This document shows, piece after piece, positions 55,749 to 60,227 of a stretch of 64,000 bases of DNA (its first letter is position 1; each line of letters opens with the position of its first letter). Made by a program: the position numbers and the translations under genes. The DNA is from Chlorobium sp. (lineage in GTDB: Bacteria > Bacteroidota > Chlorobiia > Chlorobiales > Chlorobiaceae), in contig SZXW01000002.1 in assembly GCA_005862285.1 (NCBI GenBank), forward strand, positions 124,001 to 188,000, written 5' to 3'. Below the pieces are notes generated by a model that saw only the letters and a list, made by a program, of their open reading frames with translations, had not been told where the DNA came from and ran no database searches.

Positions 55749-56024
55749 ATGCCTTTACACAAATCCGCTGAAAAAAGACTGCGGCAGTCGGAAAAAAGAA
55801 ATGCCAGGAACAGAGCGAGAAAAAAAGAACTCAAGGTCCTTGTGAAAAATATGCAGAAGCTCATTGATACCCGTGCCGACAAGGCGGATGTCGAAGTTGC
55901 TTACCGCTCGGTTGTTCAGAAGCTCGATCGCCTTGGTGTCAAGAATTACATTCACGCGAACAAGGCATCCCGTAAAAAGTCCCAGCTGACCCGTCTTTTC
56001 AACAATTACGCGAAAGCCGAGTAA
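55749..56024 (+). CDS. rpsT: Ribosomal protein bS20
   Basis: bS20 binds the 5' domain of 16S rRNA. The 91-residue protein is highly basic and helical. It has [21 protein letters not shown] at the start (in family style) and [18 protein letters not shown] near the end. Length is standard. It is divergent from glmM with 265 bases between starts, and ruvA follows after 115 bases. Confidence 0.97.
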
Positions 56025-58032: not shown

Positions 58033-58331
58033 GTAATACTTTTTTATGGAAATGTTTTATATTGGAAGCAGGCTCACAAAAATATCCATTTGCGACAGGG
58101 AACATTCCGTCGCATTAATCCTTGTTTGTGCTTATCCCTTTTACAAGAATAGATTGTCATCCCCTGTCATCTTCTTTGTCCTGCTTTCATGTTATATCGC
58201 AAGGCGTTACAAATGCTGTCCGTTAATTATTCCAGGTATACCCTTCTGAATTCCTGAATGTTCAGTAATGGAGTGCATGCCGGCTTATATTCCTTTGCTT
58301 TATTAAATAACAAGCGTTGAAAACAAATACA

Positions 58332-59621
58332 ATGTCTAACAATTCGGTTGTTAAAGGTCTGGACATCAACATGCTCCAGAAAAAGAAAGTTCATGAGCTG
58401 CATGCTCTGGCAAAAGAGATCGGCGTCAGTGCGGCAGGTTTGCGCAAGGAAGAGCTGATTTTCAAGATTATCGAAGCGCAGTCACAAAAAAACACCGACA
58501 CGGAAAACGCTACGGTGATGGTCAATACCGGCGTACTCCAGGTTATACCGGAGGGCTATGGATTTTTGCGGTCAGCGAACTACAACTATCTCTCATCACC
58601 TGACGATATTTATGTCTCTCCTTCGCAGATCAAACGCTTCAATATGCGTACCGGCGACACGGTTTCCGGGCAGGTGCGGGCTCCCAAGGAGGGTGAACGG
58701 TTTTTCGCTCTGTTGAAAATCAATACGATCGACGGAAACGATCCGGAAATTACCCGTGAGCGGCCTTATTTTGAGAACCTGACCCCGCTTTTTCCTCGCG
58801 AACGTCTCAAACTCGAAACCAAGCAGTCTGAATATTGCGGTCGTATCATGGACATCTTCACTCCTATCGGAAAAGGCCAGAGAGGCTTGATCGTCGCTCA
58901 GCCTAAAACCGGTAAAACCATGCTGCTTCAGATGATTGCAAACGCTATCATCAAAAATCACCCTGAAGTTTTTCTGATCGTGCTCCTCATTGACGAGCGG
59001 CCGGAAGAGGTTACCGACATGGCACGCAGCGTCGAAGCGGAAGTCGTGAGCTCTACATTCGACGAGGACCCTGAACGGCATGTGCTTGTTGCCGATATGG
59101 TACTTGAAAAAGCCAAACGGCTTGTCGAGGTCGGAAGGGATGTTGTCGTGCTGCTCGATTCGATTACAAGGCTTGCAAGGGCGCATAATACCATCATTCC
59201 ACATTCCGGCAAGATCCTGTCAGGCGGTATCGATGCCAATGCGCTTACCAAACCGAAGCGTTTCTTCGGCGCAGCCCGAAACATCGAGGAAGGCGGAAGT
59301 CTTACAATTATAGCTACGGCACTTGTCGATACCGGATCGAGGATGGATGATGTTATTTTTGAAGAATTCAAGGGTACCGGCAACATGGAGCTTCTACTGG
59401 ACCGAAGGCTTTCAGAACGCAGGATTTTCCCGTCGATCGATATTCTTCGTTCCGGAACGAGAAAAGAAGAGCTGCTGTTTACACAGGAAGAGCTTTCGCG
59501 GACCTGGCTTCTCAGAAAATACCTTGCTGACAAAAACCCGATTGAATGTATGGAGTTCATGCGGGAGAAAATGGCCGAGACGAAAGACAACAAGGAGTTT
59601 TTCAAATATATGAATGCCTGA
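58332..59621 (+). CDS. rho: Transcription termination factor Rho
   Basis: Rho is the RNA-dependent ATPase helicase that ends transcription. The N-terminal helical domain ([15 protein letters not shown]) leads to the RNA-binding OB fold ([22 protein letters not shown]). The motor has Walker [11 protein letters not shown], Walker B VVVLLDS and the R loop [19 protein letters not shown]. About 429 residues from ATG 58332; TTG 58317 adds five. The 299-base gap before it has no convincing gene (a 67-codon frame at 58046-58249 has no family features) and may include a leader. Confidence 0.96.
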
Positions 59622-59628
59622 CCTTTTC

Positions 59629-59661
59629 ACCGGTATTCATTTCATTACAATGAATTACGGT
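59629..59661. terminator. Hairpin after rho
   Basis: A 13-base imperfect stem (11 pairs; 59629-59641 with 59649-59661) lies 8 bases after the rho stop. There is no T run, so its role in termination is uncertain. Confidence 0.35.
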
Positions 59662-59678
59662 CCGCTCAGAATAAAAGT

Positions 59679-59706
59679 TTGCGGATTAGAAAAAACTTCC
59701 TATATT
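59679..59706 (+). promoter_or_regulatory. Candidate promoter for the COX24-type ORF and tRNAs
   Basis: TTGCGG (59679-59684) and TATATT (59701-59706) are separated by 16 bases and end 38 bases before the small ORF's ATG. Confidence 0.5.
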
Positions 59707-59743: not shown

Positions 59744-59851
59744 ATGCCCTGCGGAAAAAAGAGAAAACGTCATAAAATGGCGGTACACAAGCGTAAGAAG
59801 GCGCGCCGTAAGAACCGGCACAAGAAGCGTCAGAGATACCAGAACAAGTAA
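59744..59851 (+). CDS. Tiny basic protein, AURKAIP1/COX24 domain (mS38-like)
   Basis: The frame encodes 35 residues, of which 19 are Lys or Arg. The sequence begins MPCGKKRKRHKM and continues with AVHKRKKARRKNRHKK. This matches the very short AURKAIP1/COX24-domain proteins annotated in Bacteroidota and Chlorobi. The domain is named after mitochondrial ribosomal protein mS38, so an rRNA-binding role in the small subunit is a reasonable inference. A promoter-like sequence precedes it and tRNA-Lys follows 35 bases later. The size makes it easy to miss in automatic annotation. Confidence 0.82.
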   Translation: MPCGKKRKRHKMAVHKRKKARRKNRHKKRQRYQNK

Positions 59852-59886: not shown

Positions 59887-59959
59887 GAGAATATAGCTCA
59901 GTCGGTAGAGCATCTGCCTTTTAAGCAGAGGGTCGAAGGTTCGAGTCCTTCTATTCTCA
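59887..59959 (+). tRNA. tRNA-Lys (anticodon TTT)
   Basis: All arms can be drawn: acceptor stem GAGAATA/TATTCTC, D stem GCTC/GAGC, anticodon stem TCTGC/GCAGA with loop CTTTTAA, and T arm GAAGG-TTCGAGT-CCTTC. The discriminator base is A and CCA is not encoded. The anticodon TTT reads AAA and AAG. Confidence 0.97.
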
Positions 59960-59985
59960 CTGGATTATTCATATCCTGTATTGTA

Positions 59986-60067
59986 GCCCGAGTGGTGAAA
60001 CTGGTAGACACACCATCTTGAGGGGGTGGCGCCGAAAGGTGTAGGAGTTCGAATCTCCTCTCGGGCA
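59986..60067 (+). tRNA. tRNA-Leu (anticodon GAG)
   Basis: Class II tRNA of 82 bases. The acceptor stem is GCCCGAG/CTCGGGC. The anticodon stem CCATC/GGTGG holds loop TTGAGGG with anticodon GAG. A long variable arm (CGCCGAAAGGTG region) and a T arm with TTCGAAT follow. CCA is not encoded. It is probably co-transcribed with tRNA-Lys, 26 bases upstream. Confidence 0.96.
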
Positions 60068-60074
60068 CATATGG

Positions 60075-60101
60075 AAAAAGTCGCTTACGGCGGCTTTTTT
60101 T
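60075..60101 (+). terminator. Terminator after tRNA-Leu
   Basis: AAAAAGTCGC pairs with GCGGCTTTTT (one T-G pair) around a short loop, followed by more T. It closes the tRNA transcript 8 bases after tRNA-Leu. Confidence 0.8.
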
Positions 60102-60227
60102 GTTTCCGTTCTCCGTTTGCTGTTTTCTTTCACGGCAGGCAACTCTTTCCGAAATGAATAATTCCCATAAACTGCTTATTATACAGCCTCAACAGGGAAG
60201 AACGTTTGTTCATGATTATTCGATGAT

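Follow-up and report, generated by a model that had tools for sequence, protein, structure and literature searches.

A probable bS22 ribosomal protein gene of Chlorobium, first in a conserved array with tRNA-Lys and tRNA-Leu

Ribosomal protein bS22 is known from structures of several bacterial ribosomes, where it forms a short basic element close to the decoding centre. In Borrelia burgdorferi it occupies a 16S pocket of h2, h27, h44 and h45 and touches H68 of the 23S rRNA; the F. johnsoniae protein has been placed in the 30S pocket as well, with the same pocket and bend stated for both relatives (PMC10618245). The same report describes the Borrelia protein as closer to its F. johnsoniae than to its M. 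smegmatis counterpart and as analogous to mS38 and eL41, and, in its available sections, notes that the Borrelia gene had received no transposon insertions (PMC10618245). Tryptic mass spectrometry in that study did not pick up the Borrelia bS22, perhaps because peptides so rich in Lys and Arg tend to escape this method. A COX24-type bS22 is known in Mycobacterium and Cutibacterium; the Cutibacterium protein lies between h27, h44 and h45, forms a bridge with H67 and places its N-terminus on h44/h45 at the neck (PMC10085706). These actinobacterial proteins and mitochondrial mS38 (COX24/AURKAIP1) share with the F. johnsoniae and Borrelia relatives the 30S pocket and a basic helix, and eL41/aL41, described in the available text as a single unbent helix of 24 residues, sits in the same small-subunit pocket (PMC10618245, PMC10085706). 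In yeast lacking mS38, the decoding centre is reported to be affected, as is initiation on certain mRNAs (PMC6582356). The F. johnsoniae ribosome is represented by 7JIL, and according to the available part of the same source a ribosome of the Chlorobia had yet to be solved in 2023 (PMC9976891), which is why we infer the presence of bS22 on the Chlorobium ribosome.

We analysed a 64,000-nucleotide stretch of Chlorobium DNA (the window) and conclude, from comparison with chains of solved ribosomes, that a short ORF within it is very probably the Chlorobium gene for bS22 of the Bacteroidota/Spirochaete type, standing first in a bS22-tRNA-Lys-tRNA-Leu array (Table 1). The ribosomal protein type is a known one, and the Chlorobium protein is a well-supported member of it, with an order-specific tail and a conserved tRNA array. 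The first-pass annotation had described a very basic protein of 35 residues, over half of them Lys or Arg, and had proposed that it might be a tiny ribosomal protein. Both statements were borne out. The ORF has exactly the described extent, its translation is MPCGKKRKRHKMAVHKRKKARRKNRHKKRQRYQNK, and 19 of the 35 residues (54%) are Lys or Arg, in keeping with the length (about 28-35 residues) and composition (more than half Lys/Arg) of the bS22 type. The protein is homologous to the bS22 chains of 7JIL, 8FMW and 9I5V, and its relatives share the mS38 site (PMC10618245, PMC10085706).

Table 1. Features of the Chlorobium locus and of viral contigs with bS22-like genes
Feature	Position	Strand	Remarks
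Promoter-like core: TTTG (59678-59681), 19 nt, TATATT (59701-59706)	59678..59706	+	conserved block
rho-like gene, upstream neighbour outside the unit	58317..59621	+	ORF
bS22 gene (probable)	59744..59851	+	35 aa, ATG start, TAA stop
tRNA-Lys (UUU), second gene in the unit	59887..59960	+	ARAGORN; Rfam RF00005, 79.5 bits
tRNA-Leu (GAG), third gene in the unit	59986..60068	+	ARAGORN; Rfam RF00005, 46.7 bits
Hairpin resembling a Rho-independent terminator, with T run, closing the unit	60071..60103	+	fold -14.6 kcal/mol
Viral bS22-like gene	L061 3001-3093 (= L143 9109-9201)		contig of 297,623 bases
Viral bS22-like gene	L146 3342-3434		contig of 231,285 bases
Viral bS22-like gene	L142 8820-8912	-	contig of 18,050 bases

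A phmmer search of the PDB with the Chlorobium protein returned three bS22 chains, 9I5V_10 (E 5.5e-7), 7JIL_5 of F. johnsoniae (E 5.8e-7) and 8FMW_V of Borrelia (E 1.3e-6), followed in the fourth row by a bS20 at E 2.1. With a 19-member profile the same chains were matched at 1.2e-14 (7JIL_5), 3.2e-13 (8FMW_V, the Borrelia sequence itself being one of the 19 rows) and 6.7e-13 (9I5V_10), and up to E 10 nothing further in the PDB was found, neither an mS38 nor an actinobacterial chain. Because sequences rich in Lys and Arg can match by composition alone, each pairwise comparison was set against 2000 shuffles. The similarity proved to lie far above composition, with z values of 13.2 against the F. 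johnsoniae chain, 13.5 against the Borrelia chain and 16.7 against a common Bacteroidota bS22 sequence. Family models were less informative: Pfam gave no match, NCBIfam one at chance level only (E 2.2) and PHROGs none to bS22, and the Pfam and NCBIfam models tried miss the Chlorobium protein. Among the names that depositors gave to the 7JIL chain sequence are '30S ribosomal protein S22' and also '50S ribosomal protein L38', although the F. johnsoniae protein has been placed in the 30S pocket (PMC10618245).

The likeness to 7JIL chain 5 and 9I5V chain 10 runs over residues 1-29, in the pattern MPxGKKRKRHKxAxHKRKK...NRHKK. The Chlorobium protein differs from these two in about five or six extra C-terminal residues (...QRYQNK), and its gene in belonging to a tRNA array that is absent from the 34 examined loci outside the order. 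Alignment with the Borrelia protein (8FMW chain V) extends over 28 residues and includes a shared MPCG start and the HKRKK..RKNRHKK core, although the Borrelia protein is a 28-residue chain with a GUG start, unlike the 35-residue, ATG-initiated Chlorobium product (PMC10618245). GTG start codons were also seen in eight of the bS22 genes collected here (L027, L028, L069, L070, L080, L081, L090 and L126), and annotation easily misses such genes, as in Borrelia.

For comparison within the lineage, the window was assigned to the order Chlorobiales and, following GTDB, to the phylum Bacteroidota, and 26 Chlorobiales loci were examined, out of 37 genomes of the order in a sample of 148 genomes of the phylum. 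All 26 keep the 35-codon ORF, whereas the protein measures 29-32 residues at each of 32 other loci of the phylum (L029-L060); two loci whose GTG starts escaped the search motif (L027 and L028) were left out of the counts of length, Shine-Dalgarno (SD) sequence and rho. The Chlorobiales genes occur in 23 distinct DNA versions that encode 9 proteins, with pS 0.617, pN 0.060 and pN/pS 0.098, and their codons are under purifying selection. The genome of the window itself has one match to the protein, that is, a single gene.

Across the phylum the gene is a near-universal single copy, with one match in each of 147 of the 148 sampled genomes; the exception (G147, family f33) also gave no match by profile, in a search that had no positive control. 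The nearest named relatives, a Chlorobium MAG (L062) and a Chlorobiaceae MAG (L063), are 97% identical. Beyond Bacteroidota, profile searches centred on a Treponema MAG and on a Neomarinimicrobiota MAG matched (E <= 0.001) 115 of 149 and 53 of 61 genomes of the respective phyla, both centre genomes having been chosen because they match and being counted among the 115 and the 53. The first-pass annotation had suggested a protein restricted to Bacteroidota/Chlorobi and mitochondria. These matches contradict that restriction, and we rejected it on their account and on account of the COX24-type bS22 of Mycobacterium and Cutibacterium. Instead, one recognisable bS22 sequence type spans Bacteroidota, Spirochaetota and Neomarinimicrobiota; bS22 is therefore not a Mycobacterium or mitochondrial oddity, and for green-sulfur bacteria a further component of the ribosome has, very probably, been identified. 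A wider scan for relatives, which was no census, yielded at least 588 stretches, of which at least 137 were confirmed and 80 kept. Matches recorded as SAR202 (L084), Armatimonadetes (L125) and UBP2 (L065) may be misbinned and were not counted as further phyla; L084 encodes a protein of the Flavobacterium type, and the L125 protein together with its upstream 25 bases is identical to that of L127, a Chlorobiota MAG.

The surroundings of the gene are conserved within the order. That it lies beside tRNA genes had been noted in the first-pass annotation and is correct, both tRNA genes following on the same strand. Conservation next to tRNA-Lys had been put forward as a check, and it held within Chlorobiales only: tRNA-Lys(UUU) and then tRNA-Leu(GAG) follow bS22 on the same strand in 26 of 26 loci, whereas of 34 loci examined elsewhere in the phylum, out of 111 other genomes, none has the pair. 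In two other families a tRNA-Thr(CGU) lies directly 3' of bS22 (L037, 3043-3116; L060, 3143-3216), a pairing apparently independent of the Chlorobiales array, and in an Ignavibacteria MAG (L137) a tRNA-Thr(CGU) lies about 0.35 kb downstream.

Upstream of the gene, the DNA has diverged across loci except for a TTTG-N19-TATATTA block and a short leader. Bacteroidetes promoters have the form TTTG/TAnnTTTG, which the block resembles. Counted without a chance control, [TC]TTG-N16-22-TATATTA precedes bS22 at all 20 loci of the window's family, and the looser TTG-N17-22-TAnnTT[TA] in the same 20 and in five of six loci of the order's two other families. The earlier proposal of a promoter-like sequence belonging to the gene itself thus stands as regards the conserved block, but finds no echo in a sigma-70 consensus scan, which did not list the block and whose sole site (59624-59651) is one found against 1.3 expected. 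At the other end of the unit, 25 of 26 Chlorobiales loci have a GC hairpin with a T run behind tRNA-Leu, compared with 2 of 520 single-base shuffles, as counted by a script whose limits were set after the sequences had been viewed; the 26th locus (L023) has a longer hairpin there, found by eye. A general terminator scan listed none at 60071-60103.

The upstream neighbour encodes a protein that reads like Rho. Within about 3 kb upstream of bS22, a rho match is present at 19 of the window family's 20 loci (at the 20th, L009, the contig ends too early) and absent from all six loci of the order's two other families. The bS22-tRNA array is therefore stable while its upstream neighbour changes. Expression of bS22 only within a rho operon was considered and rejected, given the absence of rho matches within that distance at those six loci and the conserved promoter-like block. 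The arrangement suggests that bS22, tRNA-Lys and tRNA-Leu are co-transcribed as one transcript, from which tRNA-processing enzymes would cut the tRNAs, and a shared transcript of this kind would tie the supply of bS22 to that of the tRNAs. About 3.7 kb upstream of bS22, an ORF at 55749-56024 (+) reads like ribosomal protein bS20.

By homology with the published structures of relatives, the Chlorobium protein would be a bent basic helix lodged in the 16S pocket between h2, h27, h44 and h45, below the decoding centre, and would touch the 23S helices H67/H68. There it may stiffen the top of h44 and so brace the decoding-centre region, and may add an inter-subunit bridge to the 50S, in the manner of those relatives. 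The extra C-terminus (35 against 29-32 residues) could reach further along the 50S side of this bridge. With the gene recognised in three phyla, the role of an h44-bracing peptide becomes testable in harmless model bacteria.

How far this bS22 type is related to COX24 and mS38 is a separate question. The label 'mS38-like' in the first-pass annotation fits the expected position and the character of the protein; at the level of sequence it finds no support, as the COX24_C model (PF08213) does not match the protein up to E 10 and alignment with M. smegmatis bS22 scores no better than its own shuffles (z 1.12, p 0.15). The M. smegmatis protein, our positive control, matches COX24_C at 46.2 bits (E 4.2e-12, curated cut-off 23). 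A PF08213 search of the Chlorobium genome gave no match; among 14 control genomes three matched, one of them over the cut-off. Nor did M. smegmatis bS22, which represents the COX24 type in these pairwise comparisons, show significant similarity to a Borrelia sequence, two from Bacteroidota and two from phages (z -0.44 to 1.44). On the scores above, the Chlorobium protein falls in the Bacteroidota/Borrelia bS22 type and outside the COX24/mS38 sequence family. Its link to the COX24/mS38 type would rest on published structures, sequence kinship not being demonstrable here. Common descent of all these proteins with mycobacterial bS22 and mitochondrial mS38, as one universal family, has several points in its favour: the published structures show a shared pocket, bend and similar composition (PMC10618245, PMC10085706), Cutibacterium and F. 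johnsoniae bS22 are given as 37% identical and the name uS22 has been proposed (PMC10085706), mycobacterial bS22 and mS38 are taken to have a common origin (PMC6582356), and COX24_C is touched weakly by 5 of our 19 aligned relatives (best E 0.063). Set against this are the results above, including the failure of the 19-member profile to reach any mS38 or actinobacterial chain, and the convergence considered for eL41 and mS38 (PMC6582356). We regard a single universal family as plausible but somewhat short of an even chance.

Assignment to the bS22 type leaves room for different views of what the protein does. One view is that it serves initiation on mRNAs that lack an SD sequence, a role that has been suggested for both mS38 and the mycobacterial bS22. 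In Chlorobia and Bacteroidia the majority of mRNAs have no SD sequence (PMC9976891), and of 54 long ATG ORFs of the window 15 have an SD-like 4-mer at -20 to -4, compared with 9 in a control stretch (for 5-mers the counts are 5 and 1); nor does any of the 26 Chlorobiales bS22 genes have an SD 5-mer in the 15 bases examined. Elsewhere, however, bS22 genes themselves carry SD-like 5-mers, at all 8 loci from spirochaetes, at 3 of 4 from Neomarinimicrobiota and at 12 of 32 from other Bacteroidota, which weakens the idea, and we consider it unlikely. It is far less probable still that the protein is a basic peptide acting outside the ribosome, as an antimicrobial or nucleic-acid-binding agent. Its extreme composition would suit such a role, and the Cutibacterium bS22 peptide inhibits both the growth of other bacteria and cell-free translation (PMC10085706), but homologues are built into ribosome maps, near-universal presence and strong sequence constraint fit a structural ribosomal part, and no secretion signal is apparent on direct reading of the 35 residues. 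A short, low-complexity sequence beside tRNAs might also be read as a chance ORF, or as a non-coding leader ahead of the tRNAs on their transcript, but the low pN/pS, the length fixed in every Chlorobiales locus and the homologues in three phyla reduce the probability of this almost to nil, and the chance ORF was rejected on the first two of these grounds. A structural part of the ribosome, of the bS22 type, is the reading we retain.

Relatives of bS22 in viral contigs are a part of this picture that a specialist would not expect. When 2.9 million viral contigs (IMG/VR) were scanned with the 19-member profile, one of 40 pattern matches was confirmed as a relative (L061). One pattern scan of viral contigs gave two loci, L142 and L143, the latter on the same contig as L061, and another gave five, L142-L146; the five-locus pattern with one Arg changed to Lys gave no matches. 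We took L145, at a contig edge, as a chance match, and did the same for L154-L158 in a scan with 8 viral loci and for L159-L165 in one with 10. Searches of 50,697 phage and 72,556 plasmid records with the common Bacteroidota bS22 (limits E 1 and E 0.01) gave no match, and neither did searches of the phage records with the phage-type or the mycobacterial protein.

The three bS22-like proteins that emerged, from related contigs (Table 1), have 30 residues each, begin MSGAKKKK and keep the HKRKK..RK[ND]RHK core in all three, with an N-terminal MSGAK as against the cellular MP[CS]GK. Codon differences are largely silent between L142 and L143 (9 synonymous, 1 non-synonymous), and L146 differs from each of these by 13 synonymous and 6 non-synonymous changes. 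Against cellular bS22 of the Bacteroidota/Spirochaete type the viral proteins reach z values of 7.3 to 9.8, which selection by pattern inflates, the chance locus L145 itself reaching 4.2 to 4.7; in phmmer the Borrelia chain is matched at E 2.1e-4 and that of F. johnsoniae at 4.3e-4. Both large contigs match terminase (4.5e-42 and 7.6e-50), with a T4-type terminase domain, and, over the Pfam cut-off, bS21 (1.2e-11 and 1.6e-12), and one has a T4-like portal (2.9e-60); in the largest, bS21 (about 54 kb) lies far from bS22 (about 295 kb). The small contig showed no terminase or bS21 but encodes a phage lysozyme and, in the pieces fetched, has two genes in common with L143 and one with L146. Any of the three contigs may be a fragment.

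Bacteroidota are the probable hosts, as judged from two genes of the largest contig. Among the best 10 of 2185 matches to its terminase, Flavobacterium phage terminases are best covered (99%, 28% identity, E 3e-50), with the lowest E belonging to a Microcystis phage (5e-53, 92% covered), and the PDB chains nearest to its bS21 are those of 9I5V (1.3e-7) and F. johnsoniae (8.3e-6). Phages of Bacteroidota are known to encode bS21 (PMC9723584; PMC6375957), and both large bS22-bearing contigs encode it alongside terminase. However, bS21 by itself is no proof of bS22, because the contig of the chance locus L145 has it too. The available main text of PMC9723584 and PMC6375957 contains no occurrence of bS22, and we found no report of a phage bS22 in the open-access literature. 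On balance we lean towards the reading that large T4-like phages, probably of Bacteroidota, carry a bS22 of their own together with bS21 and replace both host proteins, yielding ribosomes that favour phage mRNAs. In such a swap bS21 would control access to the anti-Shine-Dalgarno sequence, and bS22 would act as the h44 brace below the decoding centre. If the phage copies are real, phage takeover of the ribosome would extend from bS21 to the protein under the decoding centre. A further contig (17,874 bases), which has neither bS21 nor terminase, contains between other viral genes a TTG-start ORF of 31 residues (L144, 9557-9652) with GAGGAGG upstream and the bS22-like core KKHKRKKKRRKQRHKSK, a possible fourth viral bS22.
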